From Verrucomicrobiota bacterium (GTDB lineage: Bacteria; Verrucomicrobiota; Verrucomicrobiia; Opitutales; Opitutaceae), in contig CANIWJ010000010.1 of NCBI GenBank assembly GCA_947471035.1, positions 1-52,736 of the forward strand: a DNA stretch of 52,736 nucleotides, in the 5' to 3' direction. Of this stretch, positions 28,102-43,073 are shown one piece after another. Every line of letters begins with the position of its first letter. Position 1 is the stretch's first letter. The translations under genes and the position numbers were made by a program. A model generated the notes under the pieces. The model saw only the letters and a program-made list of their open reading frames with translations. It searched no databases and was not told the origin of the DNA.

Positions 28102-28716
28102 GTGATAGATAACGGTAATGGCACGGTGGTTTTAGGGTTTAGTGCGGTGTTGCTGGCGGGCGGGCGCTCCACGCGGATGGGGAGGGACAAGGCCCGGCTG
28201 GCGCATCCGTGCTCGGGTTTGGCGATGGTGGTGCATCAAGTGGCGACCCTGCGGGCGGCGGGGTGCGCGGAGTGTTTTTTGGCGGTGCGGGCGGGGACGG
28301 ATTATCCGGAGGTGGGCGCGGAGGTGGAGCGGCTTTTTGACGATGGCTCGGGCGGGCCGCTGGGGGCGATTGCGGCGGGTTTGGCGCGGGCGCGGGAGGC
28401 GCGGGTGATGGTGCTGGCGGTCGATATGCCGGGGGTGACGGCGGAGTGGGTGCGCGGCCTGGTGGCGCGGGCGACCCCGGAGCGCGGGGTGGTGGTGCGC
28501 GATGCGGCGGGGTATGAGCCTTTATGCGCGGTGTATCCGAAGCTGGCGGCAGGGCGGTATGCGGAGGCTGTGGCGGCGGGGCGGCTGAGTTTGCAGGTGC
28601 TGGTGGCAGCGGGAGTGGCGGAAGGCTGGTTGATGGAGGTGAGTGCGCCGGAGGATGCGGCGGTGCTGGCCAACTGGAACGCGCCGGGGGATGTGGGGGG
28701 GACGAATTACGAATGA
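28102..28716 (+). CDS. mobA: Molybdenum cofactor guanylyltransferase
   Basis: A 204-residue nucleotidyltransferase that attaches GMP to molybdopterin to form the MGD cofactor required by the nasA product. The nucleotide-binding signature LLAGGRSTRMGRDKARL lies near residue 18. The GPLGAIAAGLARAREARVMVLAVDMPGV block holds the metal-binding Asp, followed by GYEPLCAVYPK. The start is GTG 28102; a later in-frame GTG just before VVLGFSAVLL is equally possible. The last codons (VGGTNYE) fall in a heptamer repeat array, so the C-terminus has been remodelled by the repeat. Confidence 0.9.
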   Translation: MIDNGNGTVVLGFSAVLLAGGRSTRMGRDKARLAHPCSGLAMVVHQVATLRAAGCAECFLAVRAGTDYPEVGAEVERLFDDGSGGPLGAIAAGLARAREARVMVLAVDMPGVTAEWVRGLVARATPERGVVVRDAAGYEPLCAVYPKLAAGRYAEAVAAGRLSLQVLVAAGVAEGWLMEVSAPEDAAVLANWNAPGDVGGTNYE

Positions 28717-28745
28717 CCAATGACCAATGACGAATGACGGATGGG
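28705..28745. repeat. Heptamer array overlapping the 3' end of mobA
   Basis: Six degenerate units of the AATGACC/AATGACG type begin within the last codons of mobA and run into the gap. Confidence 0.8.
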
Positions 28746-29003
28746 CGTGGCCGGTTCGGGGTGCTTCGCGGGTAAGGGGCGAACTTATCATTCCCTCACG
28801 AGCGAAAAGGAGGCGGAGCACATTTTAGCGGATGTGATTCAGTTGGGGTGAATCTGGGAATGCTGGAGCATAATTTAACGCTCGGCCCTGACGAAAGAGC
28901 CCGACAGCACGATTCTGCTTCAGCGCTGGTAATGGAGATGCAACAGGCGGGAGAGCGCGTGCGCAGAGTTGCCAGCGGCCGAGAAATCCGCACCGTTCCA
29001 CGC
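28717..29003. other. Gap between mobA and the DUF433 gene
   Basis: Apart from the heptamer repeat at its left end I see no conserved gene. An open frame upstream of the DUF433 start codon could extend that protein, but its sequence is not family-like. A promoter for the toxin-antitoxin pair should lie here. Confidence 0.4.
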
Positions 29004-29237
29004 ATGAGCGATCTTCTTTCCCGAATCACCGTTGAGCCCGGCAAGTGTGGCGGACGTCCCTGCATCCGTGGTTATCGGATGCGGGTGAAGGATGTTTTGG
29101 AACTGCTCGCCCACGGCGCTAGCTGGGAGGAGATCTTGACCGATTATCCTTTTCTTGAGGCCGACGACCTACGCGCCTGCCTGGAGTTTGCCGCCGCGCA
29201 AAACGATCACGTTTTGCTTCACGCCGCCGCTTCGTGA
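29004..29237 (+). CDS. DUF433 antitoxin-like protein
   Basis: A 77-residue DUF433 protein starting at ATG 29004. SRITVEPGKCGGRPCIRGYRMRVKDVLELLAHGASWEEILTDYPFLEADDLRACLEFAA is the whole-family signature: a small beta strand plus winged-helix domain. DUF433 proteins commonly pair with DUF5615 PIN-like proteins as type II antitoxins. The stop codon overlaps the start of the next gene. Confidence 0.88.
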   Translation: MSDLLSRITVEPGKCGGRPCIRGYRMRVKDVLELLAHGASWEEILTDYPFLEADDLRACLEFAAAQNDHVLLHAAAS

Positions 29238-29566
29238 CGCGCTTCCTCATCGACAACCAGTTGCCCTCCGCGCTCGCGCGTTGGTTGCACGCTAGAGGCC
29301 ACGAAGCCGAGCACGTGCTCGCCCTGGGCATGGGCCAGACCGCCGACACGCTGATCTGGCAGCACGCCGCGCGCACCGGCGCAGTCATCGTTACCAAGGA
29401 CGAAGACTTTGCCCAATTGACCATCCTGCGCCCCGAAGGCGTGCGCGTCGTCTGGTTGCGTGTCGGCAACTGTCGCACCGTCGTTTTGCTCGCCACCTTC
29501 GAGCGACTTTGGCCCGAGATCGTCCGCCAACTCGACGCCGGCGCGGGCTTGATCGAGGTCTATTGA
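29234..29566 (+). CDS. DUF5615 PIN-like toxin
   Basis: A 110-residue PIN-like nuclease starting at GTG 29234, overlapping the antitoxin stop by 4 bases. RFLIDNQLPSALARWLHARGHEAEHVLALGM has the N-terminal metal-binding Asp. VTKDEDFAQL holds the second acidic cluster, and VVWLRVGNCRT is the DUF5615 hallmark. By family it is the toxin of a VapBC-like module. Confidence 0.88.
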   Translation: MTRFLIDNQLPSALARWLHARGHEAEHVLALGMGQTADTLIWQHAARTGAVIVTKDEDFAQLTILRPEGVRVVWLRVGNCRTVVLLATFERLWPEIVRQLDAGAGLIEVY

Positions 29567-29895
29567 CTAGGCTTATCCGGCAAAACTCTTCTTCCCCAGC
29601 TACGTTAAGGCATTCCACTGGCGGCATGGTAACGTGCCGTCAGGTAGGCAGTTTTGAGCGGCTATGGTAAGAACCTTGCCCGCCGTCGTCGCGGGTTTAC
29701 CCAGTTCGGTGTTTCCTGTAACCGGCTCAACCCCACAACTTTTTTAGCCTGAGGCGTGGCCTATGCCGCCGGGTGTATCGCTGGGGCCCATTGAGGACTT
29801 TGCGAAAACCCAGAAACTCACAAAACACGGCCAGTCCCCCTCGGCTCGGTCACTTATGAAAAATTTCGGACACCGTTGGCTCGACCGGCTCCAAA
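29567..29895. other. Gap of 329 bases, no gene seen
   Basis: This lies between the convergent DUF5615 gene and the AT-rich metallophosphoesterase gene. It contains an aggtaggcagttt segment also found near 21620 and marks the sharp fall in GC content that begins near 29900. I see no RNA gene, attachment site or terminator that I can support. Confidence 0.4.
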
Positions 29896-32800
29896 TCACC
29901 CAAATGTTTTTTTAAAAAATATTTTATTTAAATTTGGCACCTTGCCGTCTATTATTTGCTTAGCTACTTTTTCCACGAGTGTTTGATTAGGATGCTTAGA
30001 TCCCGTATCATGCTTTGCTAAGGCCATTGCAGATAAGCGCCTTGATTGTTGGCGGTGCCTTTCTGAATTATAACCATATTTGCAGTCGTTGATTAATAAG
30101 CTGAAGACTCTATTTAGGTAGAATGAATTTTTGTTTTCTCTTACTATAAATTGTTCAATCTCACCTTCCCATCCTGAGGGTTTTTGCTTAACTATAACAT
30201 AAAGAGCTAGAAGTTCGCCGAGGGTTCCCTTATTTTCCCTTACATAATTCAGAAGAAGTGGTCCCATTTTTTTAGAAAAAATATCCTCCTGATACCAATT
30301 TGCCACATTAGAGGCCACAGCATTCATCAGTGCGTGCCACCTCTTTTCGACTGTATCCAAATGATCAAAGGTGTGGTCCAGCATGAAGTTTATTCCCTCG
30401 AAGTGCGCCTCTTTAGAATTAGCGAGTGCAGGGGATAACGTGATTAATAATTGAGCGACTTTACACCAGCAATTTATGACTTCATTTAAGAGCCCAATTT
30501 TAGATGGAGCTGTGACATAATCGCTATTTCTTAATGTTCGAGCAGCCCCCTTAACCGCAGACATCATTTGCGTGAGCGACGATTCAGTAATGAACTTTGC
30601 TAGATCCTGATTATAAGGTTTATTTCTACTATATGTGGAGTCGGCTACGGCATCTCTTACCACAGCTGGCACTGCCGCCATAGATTCATCTTCAGTCACT
30701 TCACGCTTTAGGCTAGCGAGGGCATTTTCGGATGGATGCCAACTAAATGATGTGAGAGGATTGAAAGTATCTGGAATTCCTGTTCTGGCTACGAATTCAG
30801 CTGCCATAGTTTTTAGATCTTTGATCAAGATATCTACGGCATCTTGGCACCGTCTAGTTATGCCTGCATAAAATTCCAGTATTTCCGGATATGCCGAATA
30901 TCTATTATGTGAAAGCATGAATTGACGAAAGTCGGGATCGTGATGCATGCGATGCGCTGCAAAATAGTATAACCAGTAATTAAATCTGAACTCAAATTCA
31001 TTTCCTTTCTGTATAATAATGTTCTCTGTATGAAGGAATGCGAAAAGAATATGAATTTCTAGATCTATATGGTTTTCTAGGCAGTTGCTATCGAGCTTAT
31101 TAAACTCTTGTTTTGTGAATGTCTTGCGGTTTCCCCTTATTAATTTTTCGCAGAAACAACCCAGCACGAATTCACAATCCTTTAGATCTGGTCGACTGGC
31201 GTATGAGGGGATTGCATCAAATTGAAAAAATAGCAGGTTGAGCACCCTGCTGATCATCTCGGTTCGATTTACGGGGCTATCGTCAAATGCCTGTTCGTAA
31301 AGGCGCAAAAGCAGAAGGCAGTTAAGCGGGCTTCTGTGTGTGTTTAAGCTATCTAAATCAGAAATTATTTTCTTCGTGACGCGGTCACTATCGAGATGAT
31401 TAGCGTTGATGGTATATTGTTCGACTAATAAGCGCACTTTACTCCTGTCTAGTGCCCAAAGATAAACGACATCTAATCCTTCAGTGGGGTCTTTTTCAGA
31501 CTTTTCAATATAATCGGAAACTTGTGCGCAGTCATCTACTCCACATAATGCTATTAATAAAGCAGATGGATATGCATCTTTCAGTAGTGCGAGTGTTTTT
31601 TTTCCTATTTTATCTGTCATCCAGTTATCCAGAATGAACCCATGAATAAACTCTGCGTTGATTTTTAATTCGGCGCAGCGTTTTTCTACCGCCAATGCTA
31701 TCTCCTTCGGACCCCGCATTGGCTCTTCACAATCTAGGCGCAATAGGATCTTATTTCCATTGCAGCTCTCGAAATGATTTAATGCTAAATAGTAACCTAA
31801 GCTAGATAAGCCGAACTCGGAAGGAGCTCTAATGATACATGATTTTGGCGAGGAGGCGAGTTGGCTCGCGGTAAGTTCAGGCGGGGTAGTTGCTTTGAAC
31901 TCAGATTCAGGTGTTTTAGATAAATCACGCTCTATCCAGAATCCTGCCTTATTGGAATAGCATTTGATAGAGTTATCAAATTCACGCCGAAGTATTGTAA
32001 GAGTAGTTAAATCTACTTGGGCATGGCTTTGACTGGGATGAATATGCCGCTCTTTCGGCAATGTATCGTATACGCGCTTTCCAGCATCATTTCCCGCTAG
32101 GAGCGTTCCAAGGACGAACTGATTATTGCGGGCAAACTGGCGATATTCTATTTCGACTTTACCCGTTGCCGTATCGAGTCGAGTAATGGAGTAGCCCAAC
32201 TGTTCGCTTTTTTTGGTGAATAACGCGGGCGCCGTTAGACAAATGCAGTTTCCTCCGTCTTTTATATATTGTACTGATTGGCCCTCGTGGATATGTCCGA
32301 AATAAGCAAGTTTGAAGGAATCGTTTATTATTTTATCAAGTTCTATTTTGGCCCAAGGTGCTAGCCAGTCTATTGGGTGGTGCATCACTAGGATTCTTAT
32401 TTTGGAAGTGTTATTAAGTAGCCACCTATGGATACTTCTTGTGTCAATCATCAGGCGCCCAAAGTCGCTAATTACATTGCCTTGTTTATCTTTGATCCCT
32501 CCGAACGAGCAAATAGTTGTATTTAAACTATAGATCGATAGATCCGGAGATAGGGCCCATCCTTGGCCCGAGATGGTTTCTTGGCTCAGGCAGTTACTCG
32601 TGAATCTTTCTTCAAATCTGATATAGTTTTCGAATTTTTTTCAAAATTAAGCTGGGCTCTGATTTCCGATAGGCTATCGTTGAACACATCCTCCTCATTC
32701 ATTTCACTTAGGATGCCTCTTTGCATCACGGCTATTTTCTTAATCACCTCTTGTGATATATCGTGATTGCCGGGTGTGCAGTATCTTTTACCTTTGGGAA

Positions 32801-33020
32801 TTTCTAATTCTGTTAGATATTTGTCGAATTTTGATTCGATTGCATCGAATGCCTGCTGGGACGACCCAGAGTATACAAAATCGCCGGAGAAAATAACATA
32901 GGGATTCTCTAGGTTATTAAGTGTAAGATCCTTATTTAGCCGATCACAAATAAGATCATATGCTTCCTGTTTTTCTTCAATATAGTGGAGATCTGATAGA
33001 TGAACGAATGTGTATTTCAT
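29896..33020 (-). pseudogene. Metallophosphoesterase-STAND-like protein, interrupted by a frameshift (possible defence gene)
   Basis: One gene of about 1040 codons read in two frames: residues 1-144 from ATG 33020 to a stop at 32586, and the rest ending at 29896 (its first ATG is 32451, but homologous-looking sequence continues upstream to the frameshift). The N-terminal calcineurin-like phosphoesterase is complete across both parts: LSDLHY, FSGDFVYSG, GNHD, then MHHPIDWL and FGHIHEG. A degenerate P-loop-like segment (RAPSEFGLSSLGYYLAL, about residue 400) and a long helical region follow, recalling STAND NTPases with missing Walker residues. The frame changes at an A7 run that fits a -1 slippery sequence. 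The gene is strikingly AT-rich compared with the window, indicating transfer. Its neighbours are a restriction endonuclease fragment and toxin-antitoxin genes. Confidence 0.72.
32635..32641 (-). other. A7 run where the reading frame changes (-1 slippery sequence A_AAA_AAT)
   Basis: In the first frame the codons are TTT GAA AAA AAT TCG. Re-reading one A joins this frame to KFENYIRFEERF and on without a stop to the end of the gene. The heptamer fits the X_XXY_YYZ pattern of -1 frameshift sites. A one-base deletion or a sequencing error would look the same. Confidence 0.7.
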
Positions 33021-33126
33021 GCTTAATGAGTTAAAGTGAGCTTACTAATTCAGATCGCTCCGCACAATTGTGTCCGGCCGAGTAGTTTTATATAGTTTAA
33101 GGCAGACCGGGTCGCGCCGGATTTTG

Positions 33127-33630
33127 TTAGTTTTGTAGCATCGTGTCCGGATAAGGGCCGCGGAAGCGTTCGCCGTTGAAGTGGATGAGGTGGTCGGGGG
33201 CTTCGGCGATCCAGACTTCGGATTCCCACGAAATTTGGCCGAGGAAGGCTTGCATGGCTTTACGGGTTTCGAAGGCGGTTACGAAAACCAGCCCGGCGGT
33301 GGAGCCTTTGAATAATTGTTTAAGCCCGGAACGGCGTTTGTCGTCCACCGGACCGGCGCTGGTGACGGCTTCGATAAGGATCAGCCAGTTGCGTTTCACA
33401 TCGTGGATGACGACGTCGGGCATCTTGGCGGCGGCGTTCAGTTGAATGCCGAGGTCGGCGAACCGGGCTTCGTTAAAGTGAGTCGGCTGCTCGTGTGTAT
33501 AGTGAGCATAAAGGCATACGGAGCCCGGAAACCAATGAGAGGCCAATTTCGTAAGCACCGCTTCGATAAGGTCTGGGTCCGCTGTGGAATTGCTGTTGGG
33601 TGTCATCGCGAAGGCAGGTTGATCGGTCAT
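33127..33630 (-). CDS. BsuBI/PstI-family restriction endonuclease, C-terminal domain only
   Basis: A 167-residue protein matching the catalytic C-terminal domain of BsuBI/PstI-type endonucleases: LGIQLNAAAKMPDVVIHDVKRNWLILIEAVTSAGPVDDKRR carries the PD-(D/E)xK-like core (D in MPDVV, E in LIEAVTS), followed by GLVFVTAFETRKAMQAFLGQISWESEVWIAEAPDHLIHFNGERF. Full-length enzymes are about twice as long and have an N-terminal DNA-binding domain, which is absent. No matching methyltransferase is in the window, so this is either a remnant or a stand-alone nuclease domain. It lies on the same strand between MazEF and the metallophosphoesterase gene. Confidence 0.85.
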   Translation of the reverse strand: MTDQPAFAMTPNSNSTADPDLIEAVLTKLASHWFPGSVCLYAHYTHEQPTHFNEARFADLGIQLNAAAKMPDVVIHDVKRNWLILIEAVTSAGPVDDKRRSGLKQLFKGSTAGLVFVTAFETRKAMQAFLGQISWESEVWIAEAPDHLIHFNGERFRGPYPDTMLQN

Positions 33631-33669
33631 GATTAGCGGAATTTATGCAGTCCGGTCGGTGGGAGCAGA

Positions 33670-33987
33670 CTACGAGAGGGCGAGCCAGCGCTTTACCGCA
33701 TCCTCGATCTGGGCGAGGGTCGGGCCGTCGATCACGCCTAGGCGGCGCACCAAGTGCGCGGCGGGCACGGTCGCGATGCCTTGGGCGTCGAAGCCGCCCG
33801 CATCAAACCCGCGCGCGGTGTGCGGCACCTCGAAACGTGTGCCGCGCAACGCAGTCGTGCGGGGAACAAAGGTGACGACGGCGCGCTCAATCTCGTCGTA
33901 AGGCACGCTCAAAAGCAGGGCTGGCCGGGTTTTGGCAACCATGCCGAGGTCAACCAACCAGATTTCACCGCGCTGGAAACGGCTCAC
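33670..33987 (-). CDS. MazF/PemK-family endoribonuclease toxin
   Basis: A 105-residue toxin of the MazF/PemK/CcdB fold. The N-terminus FQRGEIWLVDLGMVAKTRPALLLS has the strand-loop signature, with the catalytic Arg in KTRPALL. VVTFVPRTTALRGTRFEV and IATVPAAHLVRRLGVIDG are the next conserved strands. By family it cleaves single-stranded mRNA at short sequences. Its ATG overlaps the antitoxin stop codon by 4 bases, giving translational coupling. Confidence 0.9.
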   Translation of the reverse strand: MSRFQRGEIWLVDLGMVAKTRPALLLSVPYDEIERAVVTFVPRTTALRGTRFEVPHTARGFDAGGFDAQGIATVPAAHLVRRLGVIDGPTLAQIEDAVKRWLALS

Positions 33988-34139
33988 GCGCTTTTCCCCT
34001 CTTCCTCTTCGTAGGCAAGGAAGGTGGCTTCGGCCGCGTTTAAGAGCGCCTGGCGCTGCTCATACCAGACCGCAAAGGCTCGCGACTCCTGAGGGCTTAG
34101 TTTTTCCACGGCAGATTCGATTTCGATAACGGTGCTCAT
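33984..34139 (-). CDS. Short antitoxin paired with MazF
   Basis: A 51-residue acidic protein from ATG 34139 (MSTVIEIESAVEKLSPQESRAFAVWYEQRQ), with a helical, glutamate-rich C-terminus (NAAEATFLAYEEEEG). No DNA-binding domain is obvious in so short a chain. It is assigned as antitoxin because it precedes and overlaps a MazF gene, the usual order. A longer frame upstream starts inside a basic, non-conserved stretch and is not preferred. Confidence 0.75.
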   Translation of the reverse strand: MSTVIEIESAVEKLSPQESRAFAVWYEQRQALLNAAEATFLAYEEEEGKSA

Positions 34140-34208
34140 GGTTCGGATGGTGCGAATTCTCTGACGGCAGGCAACTCTGCACCGGTTTGTTTGGCGGGTG
34201 GGGACGGA

Positions 34209-34270
34209 GCGCGTGGGGCGTTCGGGCACTGGGCACGCTACGGCGGGGTGCGGCGACCCCGCCCTACATT
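34209..34270. repeat. Dispersed hairpin repeat (GGCGGGGT/ACCCCGCC), copy 1
   Basis: The segment gggcgttcgggcactggg followed by the GGCGGGGT / ACCCCGCC hairpin recurs, slightly diverged, at 41930-41985. Both copies lie just beyond the 3' end of a minus-strand gene, so they may also work as terminator-like stems. Confidence 0.75.
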
Positions 34271-34281
34271 GGCAGGCGCGG

Positions 34282-37200
34282 TCAGGGGGTGGTGACGCGG
34301 AGGCGGAGGAAACGGCGGGGCGGGCTGGCGGTGGAGAGGTCCACGATGTCGGCGACTGTGATGTAGCCGGGGGTGTTGGCGGCTCCGGTGGATTGCCAGA
34401 TTTCCACCCAGTCGGCGGGGCTCAGGCTGGAGCCGGATTCTACCCGGTAGGTGAGCGTCGGGTCGGCTATCCGCGCAAAGGTGAGGGTGAGGCGGTCTTC
34501 GACGAGTTGCGAGGTGAGCAGGCCGGTGTCGCGCGCGAGCGGCGAGGTGCCGAGGGCGTATTCGAGCAGGTTGGGGTAGCCGTCGCCGTCGGGGTCGGTG
34601 AGGTCGGCGGCGTTGCCGCTGGCGGCGGTGGTGGCGAAATTCGCCTGCCGCCAGGATTGGAGCGGGGTGAGGAAGCTGATGTTGTCGAAGGTGGCGGTCA
34701 CCGTGCTGTTGCCGGTGCGGGGGGCGGCGACGAAGCCTACCGATAGCGTGGAGCCGCTGAGGAGGTTGGTCCGGGCGGTGCCGAGCTGGGTCCAGCTGGT
34801 GCCGGTTTCCGAATAGTAACAGGTGAACACATCGCCTTGCCGCACTAGGCGGATCCACTCGGGGATGCCGCGACTGGTGGAGCTGGCGGTGAAGAAATTC
34901 ACGTTGGTGGTCGAGCCGCCGGTGGCGGTTTTGTGTTGGGCCCAGACCGCGCCGCTGTTGGTGCGCATGAGGTAGATACCGCTGTAGCGGGAGCCGGCGG
35001 CGGTGGTCTCGCGGAAGACGAGTCCGGCTTTGGCGGAGGTATCGGTCGAGGTCAGGGAGGCGAGGCGGGCGGTGAAGGTGCCGTCGCCACTCCACGGTTG
35101 GGAAACGTAGGTAAAGGAGTCGCCGCTGCCGGTCCACATGTCGGCGTTGGTGCCTCCGGTGGATGCGCCGCCGGTGCCGGTGATGGTAAAGCTGGTGGCG
35201 GAGTTGACCGTGGTGGTGCCGGCCGCGACTCCGGTGTAGGGGTTGATCTGGCGGAGGGTCCACGGCGCGGGGAGTGAGGGCGCGGTGACAGTGAGGGTGA
35301 AGGTGGCAGTGCTGGTGTTGCCGGCGGCGTCCTGTGCGGTGACGGTCACGAGGGTGTTGCCCACCGGGAAAAAGGAGCCGGAGGCGGGCGTGGCGGTGGC
35401 GGTGCAGTTGCCGGAGACGGCGTCCACCGCGCTAATATCGAAATCCACGTAGGCTCCGGAGGCGGTGGCACCCGGGACGGTCTGGTTGCCTGGCGTTGTG
35501 ATGATGGGGCCGGTGGTGTCGGCCACGACGGAGGGTGTCCAGAGCTTCAGCTCGGCGAGCTGCAGGCTGGTGGCGTCGCCGTTGTTGGCGGTGACGACGA
35601 GGCGGTGGAAGGAGTAGGCGGAGTTGTTAACAAAGCCGAAGTCGAAGGTCTGGCCGCGGGCGGAGAAGGTGATGCCGGTGCGGGTGTCGAGGACGATCCA
35701 GGTGGTGCCGTCGGGGGAGCCCTCGAAGCGCCAGTCGCGCGGGTCGCGGGCGGGGGTGTCGGCCGCGCTGGTGACGGAGTAGCGGGTCAGACGGGCCGGG
35801 GTGTTGCCGGCGAATTGATAGGTGAGCGTGCCGGTGGGGTTGCCGCTGGCGGTTTGCCAGGCGGTGGCGGGGTCGCCGTCGAAGGCGTTGGCGGCGGGGG
35901 TGGCGGTGCTGGTGGCGGAGGCGGCGCCGCTGGAGGGGGCGGTGGCGAGCGGGTAGGTGGTGGTGGAGTTGGTCTGCTCGGCCCAGTGTTCGCCGGCGGA
36001 GTTGAGGGCGTGGAAGCGGTAGTAGTAGCGCGTGCCGGGAGTGAGGTTGGCCGGGGTGTAGGCAACGTGGCCGGAGCCGGGCTGGCCGAGGAGGGTGACG
36101 TTTTGCCAGGCGGCGGGGTCGGTGCCGCCGTCGCCGGTGCCCCAATACACGCGGACGGTGGCGTTGGCGTCGAACTGCGGGTAGGCGAGGGTGCCGGCGA
36201 AGGTGGCGGTGTTGGCTCCGACCGAGAGGGCGGCGTTGGTGACGATGAAGGGCGTCCAGACGCGGGCGGCGGCGGGGCGGAGCTCGTCGTTGTAGAGGCC
36301 GGACATTTCCAGGGGGACGGGCACGAAGCCGGGCAGGTCGCGGTAGGCCGGGGCGTCGGGGCGGAGGCGCAGGTCGTCGTTGGCGAAGTCGATGAAGCCG
36401 GGGTCGCTGGTGTAGTGGAGGTTGGGGCCGGACTGGAGGGTGGCGGCGGGGACGGTGGCGACGCTGGCGGTGTTGGTCGTGGCGTTGATCGTGATCTGGC
36501 GCCAGTTGATGGGGGAGGCGGAGTCGAGGGCGTGGTAGGACAGGTTGTTCTGGATGGTACCGCCGGGGGTGGAGTGGAAGTAGAAGCTGTCGCGGCAGTT
36601 GACCGAGATGTTGTTGTAGGCGCGCAGGGCCATGGAGACGCCGGGCACGTTGCCGCCGTTGGCGGTATTGGTGGTGGTCCAGATGCCGAAGCCGCGCTGG
36701 GCGGTGGACGGCGTCTTGAGGTTCATGACGTTGCCGTAGATCGGGGTGCGGACGTGGTCGAAGTCGTTGTAAACGCCTTCGCCGAGCGGGCTGGAGTAGA
36801 GGTGGTTGTAGCGGATGACGGTGCCGGAATCGATGTTGGGGCCGAAGCGGTAGATGGCGCCGAGGTCGTTGGAGATGCGGGTGAAGTCGGAGACCTCGTT
36901 GTATTCGATGATGTTGTTGTAGCCGGACCAGAGGATGCCGGCGTGGGGGGAGGTGCGGATGTCGTTGTGGGCGGCGCGCATGCCGTAGGTGGGCGTGCCC
37001 CAGGAGCCGAGCGGGCCGCCGTAGCCGATGTCCACCGCAGCCTGATAAACGCGCACGACCTCGCTGAAGGAGCGGAAGCGGTTGTTGACCGCGAAGTGAT
37101 CCGATGGGGCGGAGATCGAAGCGGTGGCGGAGCCGCGGAGCATGACGCCGCCGGAGGCGAGTTTCTCGAAGTCGGAGGAGACGACGCCGTGGCCGTTGCC

Positions 37201-40200
37201 GCCGTTGATATCCACCGCCATGTTGCCGGACTGGGAGAAGGCGCAGCCGAGGAGGAGCACGCGGGAGCCGTTGAGGACCTGGACGTTGACGCCGAGATGG
37301 CGGCGGAAAGTCAGGCCTTGGAGGCGGACGTCGCTGGCGCCGCTGAACTGGATCAGCGGGGTGCCGACGTCGGCGAGCTCGATCTCCGCATCGGCGGGGG
37401 AGCCGGCGCGGTCCATGAGGAAGTAGAGTTTCTTGCGGTTAAAATCGATGCACCACTCGCCGGGTTGGTCGAGTTCTTCGAGGAGGTTGACCACCCACCA
37501 GGGTTCTTTCTTGGAGCCGGCGGGGCGGTTGTATTTGTCGCCGATGCCGTTGGAGATGAGGGCGGCGGTGGCGGGGTTGGTGGCGGCGGTGATGAAGCCG
37601 ATGGTTTGTTTGGCGGGGTCGATGAGTTTTACCTTCGCGTGGTTGATTTGCCAAGGTACGCGCCAGTAGCCGCCGAGCCAGACGCCGCCGGAGGCGAGGG
37701 CGGTTTGCCAGCGGGTGACGTGGGCGGCGTCGGCCGCGCTGTATTGGAATGCGCCGCCGACGGCGGAGGTGGAGCCGTCGCCGAGGGTGTAGGTGCCGGC
37801 GCCGTTGAGGTAGCCGGTGGCGGCAGTGCCGGGCGCGGCGTAATCGGCGCCGGGGGCGACCCCGTTCATGGCGAGATTGGGGGTCTTGGTGTCGTCGGTG
37901 AGATTGAGGTTGGGGTAGCGGGAAATACGCATGCGTTCGCCCTGGTAAAAGACTTCGAGCAGGCCGCCGTTTTGCGCGGTGCGGAGGGCGTTGAAAATGA
38001 GCCACTCGTTGAAGAGATCGGGGAAGGCGGCGGCGCGGGCGTTGCCGGTGACGTCGGTTTCCCAGATGCGGGTGACATCCACGCCGGGGGCGGCGCGGCC
38101 CTGTTCGGAGACGGCGAGCGGGGTCCATTGCGAGGCGGCGAGCACGCGCGTGCTGGTCAGGATGGGCGTCTCGCCGGGGTACGCGGCATAGACGATGGGG
38201 GCGGACTCGGTGCCGGAATCCTGAGCGGCGAGCGCGAACGTCGTGGTGCGGCGATGGATACCGCCGCGCAGGTAAACCGTCACGCCGCCCAAGCGTTGGG
38301 TAGAGTTGAGCAGGCGGAGGGTGTCGCGGGCTTTTTCCAAGGTGGCGAAGGGCGCGGCGAAGGTGCCGGCGGCGGTGTCGGAGCCAGTCGGCGAGACGTA
38401 GTAGGCGAGCGCGCTGGCGGGCTGGGGGATGCGCACGCGGACGTTCCAGTGGCGCGTGACGGTGCTGGCATCGGCGTAGGTTTCGATGACGCGCAGCCAG
38501 TGCGTGCCGACGGCCTTGTTGACCGGCGAATAGGTGAAGGCGGCGCTGGTGCCGACGGCGTCGCCGTCGAGAATCCATTGGTAGGAGGCGGCTCCGGGGA
38601 AGGCGTTGAAGGTTTGGGTGGCACCGGAGTCGAGCAGGACGGTGACGGTCGAGGGCGGGGTGGTGACGCGAACGGAAAAGGTTCTGGTGACCGAGCCGAC
38701 GGCGTTGCGAAGGGTGACGGAGTAGGTGGCGGCGTCGGCAGCCTGGAAGTTGAGCAAGGTGAGCGTGCTGGAAACGGTGCCGTCGATGAGGGTGCCGTCC
38801 TTATACCATTCGTAGGTGACGGGGGAGAGGCTGCTGGCGGTGACGCCGAGGAGGACGGCGTCGCCCGCGCCGATGGCGGCGGGCGAAGTAGCGGAGGCGA
38901 CGGCGGGGGCGACGACCGGCAGGTAGTTGCTCAAAGTGACGCTGGTGGCGGACTGGGTGACGAGGAAGGTATGCAGGCCGTCGGCGGAAACGATGCGTGT
39001 GCCGGAGGCGGCGTTGGTGAAGGCACCGGAGATCGTGCCCGAGGCGGAGAGCAGGGTGAAGGTGGCGGTGGCGGCCCCGGTATAGCCGGAAAGGAGGTTG
39101 ACCACCAAGTTGCCGCCGAGGGTGACGGAGCCGGAGACGGATAGGGTATCGTAGCAGCCGGAGGCGTGTTGGAAGGCGGTGGCGGCGGTGGGTCCGCCGA
39201 GGTCGATGGCGAGAGCGGAGCCGGAGAGCGTGGTGTAGTTGCCGGTGATCGCGGTTTTCCCGGCGGTGCCCACGCCGCCGGGGGCGAGGGTGCCGCCACG
39301 ATTCACGAGCGTGCCGAGTTGGTCTGAGGTGGCGGTCTGGCCGGATGTGGTGGTGGCGGTCGGCGAGTGGCCGAGGTTGGTGGCGATGAAGGTGCCGGGG
39401 GCGAGGGTGCCGCCGAGGAAGTTGAAGTTGCTCACGCCACCGGTGGAAACGACGCCCTGAATGTTGCCCGCGACGAGGAGGGTGCCGCCGGTGAGGGTGT
39501 AGGCGGTTTGGTTGGCGGCGAGGGAGGAGCCGATGGAGAGGTGGGTGTAGGTGTTGGCGTTGGTCGCGCCGGTGAAAACGTGCGATCCGGGGGTAATGCC
39601 GACGCGCACGGTGCCGCCGCTTTGGTTGAGCAGAACGGAGGTGTTGGCGATGCCGCCGAGGGAGAGCGCGGCGGAGGCGATGCCTGAGCCGTTGGGGAAA
39701 TTACCTGTGCCATTGGCGACATCGAGGGTGCCGCCGGAGACGTTGAAGTTAACGGTGCCGGTGGGAGTGCCTGCACCGTGGGCACCGAGACCGAGGTGGC
39801 CGGAGTTGGCGATGGCGTTGCCGCCGCCGGTGACGAGGAGGGTGCCGCCGGAGAGGTTGATGATGGTGCCGGTGGCACCGTTGAACTGGCCGAGGTAACG
39901 GGCTCCGCCGGTGGCGAGGGTGCCGCCGCTGAGGTTGAGCGTGCCGGTGAAGGCGGAGGTGTTGTTGGAGCCGAGATCGTTGGTGCGCCACTCGCCGGAG
40001 CGGACTTCGAGCACGCCGGTATCGCTGATGCGGATGCCCGCGCTGGCGGCGTTGGAGACGGTGTTGACCGATGTAGTGGAGTTAAGCGCGGAGCCGAGAA
40101 CGAGGCGGCGGTTCACCTGAAGGGCAGCGGCGCTTGCGATTGTGTGGTAGAGCTCGACGTTGTTGCCCGGGGCGGGGTCGAGGATCAGGTCGCCGGAGCC

Positions 40201-40671
40201 GGAGCCGCCGATGATGAGCTGACCGGCGAGCGGCGTGGCGGAGGTGCCGGCACGGAGAGAACCGGTGAGGCGCAGGGTGCCGCCGGTGCCGACTTGGAAG
40301 GTCTGGGTGGCGGTGAGGGCGAGCGCGGCTGAGACGGTGTTGGTTCCGGAGGACTGGGCGGCGGCGGAGAGTCCGGAGGCACCGAGCGTGAGGGTGTTGG
40401 CCGGGGAGGCGGCGGAGAGGGTCCAGCCGCCGGTCGTGGTGGAAAAGACGAGGCCGGTGACGGAGCGATTGGCGGCGAGTCGGGGCTGGTTGGCGGTGGG
40501 TGTGCCGGTGAAGGTGGCGACGTCGGTAAGTAGATCGTCGGCGGGGAGGGCGTTCCAATTGGAGGCGTTGGCGAATGCAGTATCGGCCGCGCCGGACCAG
40601 GTGGACACGGCGGCGCGGGCGCAGGGCGTGGCGAGCACGCAGGCCAAAGCAAAGGCGACGAAACGGGGCAT
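34282..40671 (-). CDS. Giant secreted mosaic protein (beta-strand repeats, Ig, beta-helix, F5/8C, HYR domains)
   Basis: A 2129-residue exported protein. The signal peptide MPRFVAFALACVLATPCARA is followed by about 560 residues of autotransporter-associated beta-strand repeats (TGTLNLSGGTLATGG style). An Ig-like domain comes next (YEWYKDGTLIDG, about 590-680). Then a right-handed parallel beta-helix (about 755-1465; YYVSPTGSDTAAGTFAAPFATL, NNIIEYNEVSDF), fibronectin-like strands, an F5/8 type C lectin-like domain (about 1580-1715; ANAFDGDPATAWQTASG) and a HYR-like domain (DTTGPIITTPGNQTV) follow. A laminin-G-like module (about 1810-1985) and a calcium-binding-type tail (DPDGDGYPNLLEYALG, about 2037) complete the chain. 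The beta-helix resembles polysaccharide lyases or hydrolases, so a role in polysaccharide binding or breakdown at the cell surface is inferred. It has its own upstream region. Confidence 0.88.
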   Translation of the reverse strand: MPRFVAFALACVLATPCARAAVSTWSGAADTAFANASNWNALPADDLLTDVATFTGTPTANQPRLAANRSVTGLVFSTTTGGWTLSAASPANTLTLGASGLSAAAQSSGTNTVSAALALTATQTFQVGTGGTLRLTGSLRAGTSATPLAGQLIIGGSGSGDLILDPAPGNNVELYHTIASAAALQVNRRLVLGSALNSTTSVNTVSNAASAGIRISDTGVLEVRSGEWRTNDLGSNNTSAFTGTLNLSGGTLATGGARYLGQFNGATGTIINLSGGTLLVTGGGNAIANSGHLGLGAHGAGTPTGTVNFNVSGGTLDVANGTGNFPNGSGIASAALSLGGIANTSVLLNQSGGTVRVGITPGSHVFTGATNANTYTHLSIGSSLAANQTAYTLTGGTLLVAGNIQGVVSTGGVSNFNFLGGTLAPGTFIATNLGHSPTATTTSGQTATSDQLGTLVNRGGTLAPGGVGTAGKTAITGNYTTLSGSALAIDLGGPTAATAFQHASGCYDTLSVSGSVTLGGNLVVNLLSGYTGAATATFTLLSASGTISGAFTNAASGTRIVSADGLHTFLVTQSATSVTLSNYLPVVAPAVASATSPAAIGAGDAVLLGVTASSLSPVTYEWYKDGTLIDGTVSSTLTLLNFQAADAATYSVTLRNAVGSVTRTFSVRVTTPPSTVTVLLDSGATQTFNAFPGAASYQWILDGDAVGTSAAFTYSPVNKAVGTHWLRVIETYADASTVTRHWNVRVRIPQPASALAYYVSPTGSDTAAGTFAAPFATLEKARDTLRLLNSTQRLGGVTVYLRGGIHRRTTTFALAAQDSGTESAPIVYAAYPGETPILTSTRVLAASQWTPLAVSEQGRAAPGVDVTRIWETDVTGNARAAAFPDLFNEWLIFNALRTAQNGGLLEVFYQGERMRISRYPNLNLTDDTKTPNLAMNGVAPGADYAAPGTAATGYLNGAGTYTLGDGSTSAVGGAFQYSAADAAHVTRWQTALASGGVWLGGYWRVPWQINHAKVKLIDPAKQTIGFITAATNPATAALISNGIGDKYNRPAGSKKEPWWVVNLLEELDQPGEWCIDFNRKKLYFLMDRAGSPADAEIELADVGTPLIQFSGASDVRLQGLTFRRHLGVNVQVLNGSRVLLLGCAFSQSGNMAVDINGGNGHGVVSSDFEKLASGGVMLRGSATASISAPSDHFAVNNRFRSFSEVVRVYQAAVDIGYGGPLGSWGTPTYGMRAAHNDIRTSPHAGILWSGYNNIIEYNEVSDFTRISNDLGAIYRFGPNIDSGTVIRYNHLYSSPLGEGVYNDFDHVRTPIYGNVMNLKTPSTAQRGFGIWTTTNTANGGNVPGVSMALRAYNNISVNCRDSFYFHSTPGGTIQNNLSYHALDSASPINWRQITINATTNTASVATVPAATLQSGPNLHYTSDPGFIDFANDDLRLRPDAPAYRDLPGFVPVPLEMSGLYNDELRPAAARVWTPFIVTNAALSVGANTATFAGTLAYPQFDANATVRVYWGTGDGGTDPAAWQNVTLLGQPGSGHVAYTPANLTPGTRYYYRFHALNSAGEHWAEQTNSTTTYPLATAPSSGAASATSTATPAANAFDGDPATAWQTASGNPTGTLTYQFAGNTPARLTRYSVTSAADTPARDPRDWRFEGSPDGTTWIVLDTRTGITFSARGQTFDFGFVNNSAYSFHRLVVTANNGDATSLQLAELKLWTPSVVADTTGPIITTPGNQTVPGATASGAYVDFDISAVDAVSGNCTATATPASGSFFPVGNTLVTVTAQDAAGNTSTATFTLTVTAPSLPAPWTLRQINPYTGVAAGTTTVNSATSFTITGTGGASTGGTNADMWTGSGDSFTYVSQPWSGDGTFTARLASLTSTDTSAKAGLVFRETTAAGSRYSGIYLMRTNSGAVWAQHKTATGGSTTNVNFFTASSTSRGIPEWIRLVRQGDVFTCYYSETGTSWTQLGTARTNLLSGSTLSVGFVAAPRTGNSTVTATFDNISFLTPLQSWRQANFATTAASGNAADLTDPDGDGYPNLLEYALGTSPLARDTGLLTSQLVEDRLTLTFARIADPTLTYRVESGSSLSPADWVEIWQSTGAANTPGYITVADIVDLSTASPPRRFLRLRVTTP

Positions 40672-40770
40672 GGGGTGGGGTATGCAGACGGCTGACTGGC
40701 GGGGGAGGCCGACTGCATTGAGGTAAGAACGGAATGTATGCCTTCCTGTTTATTCCGGAAAAAAGACCAA

Positions 40771-40784
40771 TTTTTTGCAAAAAA
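40771..40784. promoter_or_regulatory. Palindrome upstream of the giant secreted gene
   Basis: TTTTTTGCAAAAAA is a perfect 14-bp palindrome about 100 bases before the start codon, in an otherwise GC-rich region. It could be an operator or part of a promoter. Confidence 0.4.
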
Positions 40785-40883
40785 CACCGGTCGCCTCGGT
40801 GTAGGGCGTGTCTGGGTTTAAGCGGTGAAAATCTTATCTATGTAAGCCTCGGGCCGGTTTTGGCTTACCGGGGTGCGGGAAGG

Positions 40884-41642
40884 TCAGGATCGCTTGCGCC
40901 GCCGCCACAGCGAGTAGGCGCCACAGGCCCCGGCGAGGACCGTGGCGTAGGCGGCCGGTTCGGGGACCGGGGCCAGGTGGAGAACGAGGTCGTTGCCGGC
41001 CTGATAGAGCGAGGCCCGCGAGGCGAAGTCGCCCGTCACCGAGAACAGGTCGGCAGAGAAACCTGTGATGCCTACGGACACATTCAGGAATGTCCAATCG
41101 TAGGCGGCCTGTGGGTCATAGCCTGCGGGCGTGCCTGCGACGCTTCCTGCGTAGCTATGAATATCGAGCACGAATGAGCCCACGCTATACCCCGTGAAGT
41201 CCACGGTTGAACTAGACCAGTTCGTCCACCCCGTGCCCATGCCAGCGTTTACGTCGCTGATGCCGAATGCCCAGGCCGTAAGTTGAGGGAGTGGCGGCAA
41301 CCCGAACGACCACGTAGCCACGAGCGGTAGGGTGGAGCCGTCTGGCACGTTGTAGTCGGAGAGGGTTCTTCCGTCGAGAAGCAGTTGATTGCCGTAGTAG
41401 AGATATTGCCGTTCCGGGGGCGTGCCCAGCCTGTCTTGTACGAATTGCTTAACGTAATCGATCGAGTCGGACATCTCGACCGTAAAGGGACCGATCTGGC
41501 GCCCGTCTGGCTGGCGGATGAAAATCTGCGCGGCCATCGACTCCGGCACGGTTGCCCATAACATTAGGGCCGCCGCCAGGCAGAAGCCGTATGGCGACCT
41601 CGGGCGAGCGTTACTGACAGGAAACTCGATTATCAGGGGCAT
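40884..41642 (-). CDS. Exported ubiquitin-like PEP-CTERM protein
   Basis: A 252-residue exported protein with three parts. Residues 1-37 are a signal peptide (hydrophobic CLAAALMLWATVPESMA). Residues 39-110 are a ubiquitin-like domain: QIFIRQPDGRQIGPFTVE, DYVKQFVQDRLGTPPERQ, then LDGRTLSDYNVPDGSTLPLV, aligning without gaps across ubiquitin's central region and keeping the DGRTLSDYN loop exactly. Ubiquitin Lys48 and Lys63 positions are not Lys, Ile44 is Tyr, and there is no exposed diglycine because the chain continues. Residues about 115-225 are a beta-rich domain (STVDFTGYSVGSFVLDIHSYAG). The end VPEPAAYATVLAGACGAYSLWRRRKRS is a PEP-CTERM sorting signal, processed by an exosortase. The function is unknown. 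Its upstream region carries a perfect 14-bp palindrome. Confidence 0.9.
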   Translation of the reverse strand: MPLIIEFPVSNARPRSPYGFCLAAALMLWATVPESMAAQIFIRQPDGRQIGPFTVEMSDSIDYVKQFVQDRLGTPPERQYLYYGNQLLLDGRTLSDYNVPDGSTLPLVATWSFGLPPLPQLTAWAFGISDVNAGMGTGWTNWSSSTVDFTGYSVGSFVLDIHSYAGSVAGTPAGYDPQAAYDWTFLNVSVGITGFSADLFSVTGDFASRASLYQAGNDLVLHLAPVPEPAAYATVLAGACGAYSLWRRRKRS

Positions 41643-41721
41643 CGGAATCGGAAGTGGCTTCAGGGTGGGGTGACGGTTGAAAACGGAATCTCACCTCTGC
41701 TTTGATCAGGCAGTGTTTGTT

Positions 41722-41735
41722 GTATAACGTTATAC
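41722..41735 (-). promoter_or_regulatory. Perfect palindrome upstream of the ubiquitin-like gene
   Basis: GTATAACGTTATAC is its own reverse complement and lies 80 bases before the start codon. It overlaps a TATAAC/TATACT-like -10 and is a good candidate operator. Confidence 0.5.
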
Positions 41736-41792
41736 TAAAACTGCGAAAGCAGGACATGAGCAGGACATGGTTTAACACAAAGGCGCAAGGGC

Positions 41793-41848
41793 GCAGAGAA
41801 GCAGAGAAGCAGAGAAGCAGAGAAGCAGAGAAGCAGAGAAGCAGAGAA
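41793..41848. repeat. Tandem 8-bp repeat, seven perfect copies
   Basis: GCAGAGAA is repeated seven times without a mismatch, preceded by acacaaaggcgcaaggg. It is a simple-sequence array that may vary in copy number. Confidence 0.95.
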
Positions 41849-41929
41849 GAGTAGCCTACGCGGCTTGGCGATTTTGCGTTAAGACAAGTTCGGTTTGTTG
41901 TGAGGGTTTTGGATGAGACGGCGTGCGTT

Positions 41930-41985
41930 GGGCGTTCGGGCACTGGGAAGGTTACGGCGGTGTGCGCGACCCCGCCCTGCATGGT
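41930..41985. repeat. Dispersed hairpin repeat, copy 2
   Basis: It begins with the same gggcgttcgggcactggg as the copy at 34209 and continues into a GGCGG...CCGCC hairpin, immediately after the 3' end of the MoeB-rhodanese gene. Confidence 0.75.
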
Positions 41986-43073
41986 TAGGGTTTGCTATGG
42001 GTGGTGTAGCCGCCTTGGAGGCTTTGGGCTTGGGGCCAGCCTTGGGTGCGGAGTTGGCGGACGGCGCGCAGGCTGCGGCCGCCCAGCGCACAGTAGACGA
42101 CGAGGCGGCCGGTGCGGGGGATTTCGGACGGGGCGCGGGCGGCGAGCTCGGCCAGGGGGATTAGGTGCGCACCGGGCAGGGTGCCGGCGGCGGTCTCGGC
42201 GGGCTCGCGTACGTCGAGCAGGAAGTCGGCCCCGGACGGGGTGTTGGTTTCTTCGTCGGGTTGGGCGGGCGCGGAGGCGACGGCGGTGCAGGTGGGCGCG
42301 GCGTAGCGGGCGGGGTCGAGGTGGGTAATCGTGGGGGCGGGGCCGCAGAGGGGACAGGCTAGGTCGGGGGCGAAGCGCAGGGTTCGGGTGGTGGCGGCGA
42401 GGGCATCGTATTGCCAGAGGCGGCCAAGGAGGGGTTCGCCGATTCGGGCGAGGAGTTTGAGGGTTTCGAGGGCTTGCAGGGTGCCGACCTGGCCGCAGAG
42501 CGCGCCGATCACGCCCGCTTCGCCGCAACTAGGCACCAGGCCGGGGGCGGGAGCTTCGGGGTGGAGGCAGCGGTAACAGGGGCTACCGAGGTGGGGGGCG
42601 AAGACGGTGACCTGGCCCTCCCATTGGTAAACGCTGCCGTGGACGAGGGGCACGCGGGCAAGAACGGCGGCATCGTGGGCGAGGTAGCGGGTGGCAAAGT
42701 TGTCGGCGCAATCGACCACGACATCGTAGGCGGCGACGAGGGCGGCGGCGTTTTCCGGGGTAAGGCCTTCGGGGTGTGGGATCAGGTGCACCTCGGGGTT
42801 GAGGGCGGAGAGGCGGGCGGTGGCGCTGGCGAGTTTGGGCGTGGCGGCGGTGGCGGCGGGGGTGTCGTGCAGGATCTGGCGTTGCAGGTTGTGGAGGGCT
42901 ACGGTGTCGAAATCGGCGAGGCCCAGGGTGCCGACGCCGGCGGCGGCGAGGTAGAGGGCAACCGGGCTGCCAAGTCCGCCGAGGCCGATGATGAGCACGC
43001 GTCCGGCGGCGAGGCGGGCCTGGCCTGCGGGGCCGAGCTCGGGCAGGCAGATTTGGCGGGAGTAACGGGACAC
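41985..43073 (-). CDS. moeB: MoeB-rhodanese fusion (sulfur-carrier E1-like enzyme)
   Basis: A 362-residue E1-like adenylyltransferase. The N-terminal ThiF/MoeB domain has RYSRQICLPELGPAGQARL, the ATP loop IIGLGGLGSPVALYLAAAG, DFDTVALHNLQRQIL, the VVDCADNFATRYL motif, two zinc-binding CxxC pairs (CYRC and CPLC) and a Cys in PSCGEAGVIG at the position of the MOCS3 active-site Cys. Residues about 275-362 are a rhodanese domain (LLDVREPAETAAGTLPGAHLIPL) with an active-site loop CALGGRS. Such MoeBR/MoeZ/MOCS3 proteins adenylate and sulfurate diglycine carriers. The likely client is MoaD at 23991-24230; this is the only such enzyme in the window. It is separate from the moa cluster and next to the exported ubiquitin-like gene. 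Confidence 0.9.
   Translation of the reverse strand: MSRYSRQICLPELGPAGQARLAAGRVLIIGLGGLGSPVALYLAAAGVGTLGLADFDTVALHNLQRQILHDTPAATAATPKLASATARLSALNPEVHLIPHPEGLTPENAAALVAAYDVVVDCADNFATRYLAHDAAVLARVPLVHGSVYQWEGQVTVFAPHLGSPCYRCLHPEAPAPGLVPSCGEAGVIGALCGQVGTLQALETLKLLARIGEPLLGRLWQYDALAATTRTLRFAPDLACPLCGPAPTITHLDPARYAAPTCTAVASAPAQPDEETNTPSGADFLLDVREPAETAAGTLPGAHLIPLAELAARAPSEIPRTGRLVVYCALGGRSLRAVRQLRTQGWPQAQSLQGGYTTHSKP

Follow-up and report, generated by a model that had tools for sequence, protein, structure and literature searches.

The carriers MoaD and ThiS and the archaeal SAMP carriers are cytosolic beta-grasp proteins with a Gly-Gly end and little sequence likeness to ubiquitin. BfUbb of Bacteroides fragilis is the sole studied precedent that we found for an exported bacterial ubiquitin, and PMC3352274 introduces it as unique, ubiquitin having until then been known only from eukaryotes. 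According to PMC5705921, BfUbb is secreted, starts at ubiquitin Met1 and lacks the terminal Gly; 250 ng is enough to inhibit sibling strains, whereas bovine ubiquitin is inactive. Activity is retained in a synthetic 76-aa version that lacks the terminal glycine, and the authors thought an immunity gene unnecessary. According to Patrick et al. (PMC3352274) BfUbb inhibits ubiquitination in HeLa extract in vitro and becomes covalently linked to human E1 when conditions are non-reducing. A first-pass annotation of the DNA described here had not come across a described role for such a protein; for one secreted bacterial ubiquitin, BfUbb, a role is published (PMC5705921).

We analysed a 52,736-nt stretch of DNA (the window) that encodes a 252-aa protein with a ubiquitin domain (Table 1). 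The draft genome comprises 232 contigs, contamination being estimated at 6.58%; moeB and the neighbouring genes of the window contig match the same genus. The coordinates given for the gene in the first-pass annotation are right, the strand being minus (41642 to 40884), and the peptides that it quoted, including DGRTLSDYN, are present. The window protein and BfUbb are alike in having a signal peptide, a mature start at ubiquitin position 1, a eukaryote-like ubiquitin without a diglycine end and a presence in only some genomes. They differ in that BfUbb is a free protein of 76 aa, 63% identical to human ubiquitin according to its authors and ending in Cys, whereas the window protein is identical at 34/72 positions, carries about 140 further residues with a PEP-CTERM end and is thus not a free mature protein of ~76 residues. 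With MoaD, ThiS and the SAMPs it has the beta-grasp in common, but the Gly-Gly end and the cytosolic location are theirs only, and it does not combine a Gly-Gly end with a dedicated E1 partner as they do.

Table 1 Features of the ubiquitin locus and its surroundings (window positions)
Feature	Position	Strand	Remarks
252-aa gene: signal peptide, ubiquitin domain, tail, PEP-CTERM	40884..41642	-	ORF, Pfam/NCBIfam
Signal peptide, residues 1-37, cleavage after SMA	41532..41642	-	by eye; model helix 17-29
Ubiquitin domain, residues 38-110	41313..41531	-	PF00240, PDB matches, fold
Tail module, residues 111-224	40971..41312	-	C-terminal module shared with large PEP-CTERM proteins of relatives
PEP-CTERM sorting signal (VPEP, hydrophobic helix, RRRKR), residues 225-251	40890..40970	-	TIGR02595; PF07589 just under
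Terminator-like hairpin 3' of ubiquitin gene	40784..40802	-	weak
Perfect 8-bp tandem repeat GCAGAGAA, 7.1 copies	41793..41849	.	151-207 bp upstream of ubiquitin start codon
MoeB/ThiF-like adenylyltransferase with rhodanese domain	41985..43073	-	adjacent upstream of ubiquitin gene
Large protein, 2129 aa	34282..40671	-	HYR, F5/8 type C over cut-off; weaker Ig, beta-helix
Direct repeat, left copy, 55 bp	34211..34265	+	89% identical to right copy
Direct repeat, right copy	41925..41978	+	89% identical to left copy
PADLOC PDC-S60 candidate defence protein	29896-32451		within hotspot
BsuBI/PstI-type restriction enzyme, C-terminal half only	33127-33630		within hotspot

Residues 40-108 match PF00240 in Pfam at 46.1 bits (cut-off 25.4, E 4.1e-12); the same profile had no match in the 14 control genomes, in the family, order and phylum scans alike. 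A PDB sequence search with the window protein returned 328 distinct sequences at E 0.01, and the first 60 of these are ubiquitins, ubiquitin fusions or engineered ubiquitin variants, to judge from their names or from where they align. The AlphaFold model gives residues 41-110 block mean pLDDT values >90 and folds them into the beta-grasp of the ubiquitin family, the best structural match being ubiquitin itself (Z 15.9, 0.8 A over 74 residues, 46% identity; model built from an alignment made of ubiquitin sequences). The BfUbb structure 8hm1 stands at rank 43 of the Foldseek matches. As the alignment consists of ubiquitins, the fold evidence agrees and overlaps with the sequence match and is not independent of it. 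The profile search and the structure prediction that the first-pass annotation had proposed as checks both return a ubiquitin domain, the second with this overlap.

Relative to human ubiquitin, the known interaction face is altered by L8P, R42Y, I44Y, K48Q, Q49L and H68P, so that most of the Ile44 patch is lost, and V70 is kept; at the hydrophobic core 14/14 positions are still hydrophobic and 10 are unchanged. One of the seven lysines of ubiquitin is left (K27), and the domain runs on as LVATWSFG with no C-terminal Gly-Gly, either free or exposed by cleavage. With no diglycine end and 6/7 lysines lost, the protein is not a conjugatable tag and cannot be joined to other proteins; the first-pass annotation had thought this probable from the changes at Lys48, Lys63 and Ile44 and the lack of a diglycine, all of which we see. 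Since L8, I44 and H68 are replaced, the domain should not bind ordinary ubiquitin receptors.

A hydrophobic leader and an S-M-A/A cleavage site were recognised by eye, and by eye and alignment the cleavage falls at ubiquitin position 1 (SMA then AQIF), as in BfUbb. The C-terminus carries the PEP-CTERM signal of exosortase substrates by TIGR02595 (18.0 bits, cut-off 16), with PF07589 at 19.1 bits, 1.6 short of the 20.7 that it requires. Four exosortase (PF09721) matches over cut-off are present in the genome. From these signals we infer that the protein would be exported by Sec and sorted by an exosortase. The PF00240 match, the fold, the leader and TIGR02595 together bear out the original description of a ubiquitin-like domain on an exported PEP-CTERM protein. 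In the flanking DNA a promoter scan found nothing, and the hairpin after the gene is weak evidence of a terminator, since the stretch has 2 such sites against 1.6 expected by chance. The length of the 8-bp tandem repeat upstream of the gene could vary, which makes it a possible expression switch; a probe for this repeat found it at 0/171 other loci, a further three loci containing the window's own stretch.

A whole-protein search of 57 genomes (the window's own and relatives) gave matches in 20, and 34 of the 41 listed matches are to the tail alone. The tail, modelled with pLDDT mostly <60, has its homologues in large PEP-CTERM proteins, as their C-terminal module; these have no ubiquitin in the matched part. 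When part of each protein was scanned for 10 of the 34 tail-only matches, PATR repeats were present in eight at E 0.001 (five over the curated cut-off) and PEP-CTERM in nine. Ubiquitin thus occupies the place of other passenger sequence, often PATR repeats: the large proteins of the relatives share the homologous C-terminal module and PEP-CTERM with the window protein but have a big passenger where it has ubiquitin.

The layout of signal peptide, ubiquitin, tail and C-terminal sorting signal was recognised by eye in five other genomes (G012, G013, G097, G361 and G217). Four of these (G012, G013, G097 and G361, leader and PEP motif by eye) answer the search for homologues of the same layout that had been suggested at the outset, and their tails match the window tail: within a set of six, phmmer with the window tail as query gave E 6e-15 to 9e-11, but a query with the G097 tail did not report the window protein. 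The G217 tail has no likeness to those of the other same-layout proteins. Identity to human ubiquitin is 88% in G361, 78% in G217 and 57% in G097. Window and G361 share 45% in ubiquitin and 31% in the tail, window and G012 38% and 35%, and G012 and G013 65% and 60%. We read the proteins from G361 to the window as a graded series from near-canonical to derived ubiquitin, a reading to which the ubiquitin-domain tree adds no support. Because this series includes a near-canonical ubiquitin on a homologous tail, the window ubiquitin is probably best read as derived from a eukaryote-like ubiquitin that bacteria already secreted.

Exported ubiquitins are scattered well beyond these relatives. In overlapping genome samples PF00240 was found in 8/252 genomes of the bacterial family (7 over cut-off), 12/372 of the order (10 over cut-off) and 14/387 of the phylum (all 14 over cut-off). 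A profile scan in which each of 84,980 species was represented by a single genome yielded 479 candidate ubiquitin loci, and we studied the best 80 of these, ranked by likeness to a near-canonical query, a choice that makes the family conservation figures below lean high. Among the 80 we counted 67 as encoding a signal peptide followed by a near-canonical ubiquitin, 82-99% identical to human. The leader passed a rough script rule in 56 and was recognised by eye, as a hydrophobic stretch preceding ubiquitin, in 11 (L061, L066, L068, L074, L075, L080, L081, L093, L104, L112 and L117). The other 13 were dropped before the pair counts, the leader not being seen or the locus looking eukaryotic (L064, L065, L070, L077, L079, L090, L094, L102, L109, L127, L129, L131 and L132). 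Leaders in the 67 end at or near ubiquitin Met1, and a simple -3/-1 signal-peptidase rule fits 66/67. By record title the best 80 include the isolates Verrucomicrobia bacterium IMCC26134 (complete genome), Paracidovorax valerianellae, Pseudohaliea rubra, Cohnella phaseoli, Ruminococcus albus 8, Rhodoferax lacus, Rhodopirellula maiorica, Dyella and Saccharibacillus sacchari, and the Ruminococcus albus 7 plasmid pRUMAL01 encodes one annotated as 'ubiquitin family protein'. As several carriers are isolates and belong to several phyla, bin contamination alone cannot explain exported ubiquitins. With a canonical ubiquitin query, 0/50,697 phage records had a match; three of 72,556 plasmid records matched ubiquitin.

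The tails of these proteins are diverse. A domain census of 72 of the 80 (65 of the 67 plus seven dropped loci), counted over the top 25 of 63 and the top 25 of 35 families, found autotransporter barrels in 17, SLH in four, dockerin in two, a T9SS tail in one and IPTL-CTERM in three by Pfam and four by NCBIfam, along with Ig-like and other repeats; one of the 72 also matched ubiquitin hydrolase (UCH). There is no tail in 2/67, and RGG is kept in four (L089, L123, L125 and L126). L123 (Dyella sp. OK004) is tailless, a leader followed by a 76-residue ubiquitin whose last residues are RLRGG; no other protein in the set comes closer to a secreted eukaryotic ubiquitin. In L047 (G053) a leader and ubiquitin are fused to what looks by eye like FGE-sulfatase-like sequence, with broken ubiquitin copies following. 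Like the window protein, the proteins of other bacteria have the leader directly before Met1 and variable C-terminal modules; unlike it they are near-canonical, use other anchor types and in some cases lie beside SET or SET-like genes. Exported ubiquitin thus appears to be a recurrent, scattered and barely studied bacterial architecture, of which the window protein is a derived member. The first-pass annotation had offered transfer from a eukaryote or an ancient secreted family as origins; a widespread secreted family does exist, and the ubiquitin-domain tree (86 rows, 72 columns; 58/83 inner branches open) does not distinguish one origin from several. Reviews from the Aravind group may discuss bacterial ubiquitins. 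We found no description of the wider exported family in the open-access literature, and a term search of a 2024 review of ubiquitin evolution (PMC11354881) gave no hit for Bacteroides, secreted, signal peptide or Verrucomicrobi.

In the wider family ubiquitin is far more constrained than what it is attached to. In all 57 pairs with homologous tails, which are non-independent and lean to canonical ubiquitins, the ubiquitins resemble each other more closely than the tails do (median 92% vs 33%), with non-synonymous differences per site of 0.01-0.11 and synonymous differences from 0.02 to saturation. Repeated uptake from eukaryotes could partly mimic such conservation. The eukaryotic interaction surface is almost unchanged, with L8 in 67/67, I44 in 65/67, H68 in 66/67 and V70 in 59/67. 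In the window's clade, unlike in the wider family, conservation is only slightly higher in ubiquitin than in the tail, too weak a contrast to demonstrate a specific binding function of the head. Judged from these comparisons, the ubiquitin surface of the window lineage seems to have been released from constraint with the fold kept.

Clustering of 314 flanking ORFs from the 67 loci and the R. albus plasmid identified two neighbour families. One is a MYND-SET protein related to SMYD3 (PF00856 E 1.5e-9; PDB SMYD3 E 5e-22), encoded downstream of a ubiquitin with leader at L082, L096, L105, L054 (IMCC26134, evidently the same as G010 and also L040) and in G775 (L163, L166); in L054 and G775 it follows a tandem pair of ubiquitin genes. 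This gene occurs in one of the 252 family genomes and two of the 387 phylum genomes (G010 and G775), each of which has it next to ubiquitin. By a rough estimate, with the rate taken from the window's genus only, the chance of a SET gene in a 6-kb stretch is 0.0013 per locus and that of at least two independent cases in 67 is 0.004. The second family, of ~330 aa, lies beside ubiquitin in 7/67 loci with changing orientation and tails (L066, L075, L081, L101, L104, L110 and L117). Its model matches SETD3, LSMT and SETD6 with a best E of 2.3e-5 and probability 1.00 at TM 0.41-0.49 and rmsd >11 A, and it carries an NHS motif that we take to be a SET motif; the three of its seven members that were tried had no Pfam match at E 0.01, and its profile had none among PDB sequences at E 1. 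It resembles SET proteins by predicted fold only. At the same seven loci the reading frame stays open upstream of the leader and encodes a loosely common peptide pattern (such as G-I-x-F-T-S), which suggests an extended N-terminal region.

At the window ubiquitin gene there is no SET-type neighbour, and its genome (G000) has no SMYD-like gene, its single SET match lying on a different contig (C13); the A4 profile found no match within the window. No immunity-like neighbour recurred across the family: a Pfam scan of 103 of the 113 nearest flanking ORFs (all but 10 SET-cluster members) showed them to be mostly unrelated, as judged on the commonest 25 of 158 families.

The window gene lies next to moeB, in a 7.7-kb segment that is flanked by the two direct-repeat copies and holds two genes, the ubiquitin gene and that of the 2129-aa protein. 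We compared the moeB site in three relatives, two of which are informative and both lack the segment, the third (G003) ending inside moeB. In G004 a single repeat copy stands directly before a moeB whose product is 91% identical to the window's (one TAA inside the match), the segment is absent and there is no PF00240 match in the genome. In G010 ~0.2 kb separates the alignment of moeB from that of the conserved upstream gene, and the closest MoeB is ~1.9 Mb from its ubiquitin genes. Gain of the segment in the window lineage is the simpler reading, loss being the alternative. The region from 28.7 to 42 kb appears to be a variable hotspot, given the segment variation, the PDC-S60 candidate and the partial restriction enzyme: the stretch before moeB (28700-42000) exceeds 13 kb in the window and is ~5 kb in G004 and ~0.2 kb in G010. 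The 2129-aa gene was considered as a fixed partner of ubiquitin and rejected, as among 11 ubiquitin-like loci (three seen over only 3.2 kb) it had only partial matches, in G010 and in G033, whose PF00240 match is under cut-off.

Several roles can be weighed against these data. The position of an E1-like MoeB immediately upstream on the same strand would suggest a carrier or modifier working with it, an idea to which we give practically no credence. MoeB is a chance neighbour, since relatives keep it without a ubiquitin gene: a MoeB-like match at E 1e-40 is present in 13/15 genomes of the genus (46-100% identity), with G004 and G010 as described. This synteny and the missing Gly-Gly rule MoeB out as a partner, and the protein carries export signals. 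Mimicry of ubiquitin towards eukaryotes that meet the cell surface, for example grazing protists, is quite improbable for this protein, in which L8, I44 and H68 are replaced, although the wider sampled family keeps the eukaryotic interaction surface and BfUbb acts on HeLa-extract ubiquitination and complexes with human E1 (PMC3352274). The domain may also be a decaying or neutral remnant, its ubiquitin, under selection in its ancestors, having become no more than a passive cap for the PEP-CTERM tail. We hold this to be unlikely: ubiquitin and tail differ little in speed in the window lineage, and the broken copies of G053 belong to the same order, but the frame is open over 252 codons, the core is kept at 14/14 positions and the export and sorting signals are intact.

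A contact-dependent antibacterial factor, a surface-tethered counterpart of BfUbb, has a modest chance of being right. BfUbb is active without the terminal glycine whereas bovine ubiquitin is inactive (PMC5705921), so small surface changes matter; the distribution across the overlapping family, order and phylum samples is patchy, and the gene sits in a variable segment near PDC-S60 and the partial restriction enzyme. Against this, no immunity gene was recognised beside the ubiquitin gene, PADLOC had no match for the window protein, and the domain is tethered and has only 34/72 residues in common with human ubiquitin. The reading that we favour, and think probable, is that of an exported, exosortase-sorted envelope protein with a degenerate ubiquitin head on a surface stalk, serving, by analogy with BfUbb, in recognition or competition. 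A eukaryote-like ubiquitin would have gained a signal peptide in bacteria and, in the window's order, would have replaced the passenger of large PEP-CTERM proteins by fusion to their C-terminal module, its surface then diverging in the window lineage while the core was kept. With Sec export and exosortase sorting the protein would end up in the envelope, its free N-terminus bearing the ubiquitin fold, which most likely acts as a compact binding head on the stalk, used to recognise or compete with neighbouring cells.

Exported ubiquitin has been known as one studied homologue; here it recurs on diverse surface anchors in isolates of several phyla, and in two lineages it lies beside an SMYD-like methyltransferase or a SET-like neighbour. 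As a speculative extension, to be held loosely, there may be a general bacterial surface-ubiquitin system that displays near-canonical ubiquitin on interchangeable anchors, with lysine methylation before export by a dedicated adjacent SET enzyme in some lineages and a part in cell-to-cell antagonism or recognition, the window member having been freed to bind something new. If so, the SET enzyme would be SMYD-like in Verrucomicrobia and LSMT/SETD3-like in Betaproteobacteria and others. The recurrence of exported ubiquitin raises the question of what keeps ubiquitin almost unchanged outside bacterial cells, and the window protein would be the contrasting case, in which that constraint appears to have gone and only the fold has been kept.
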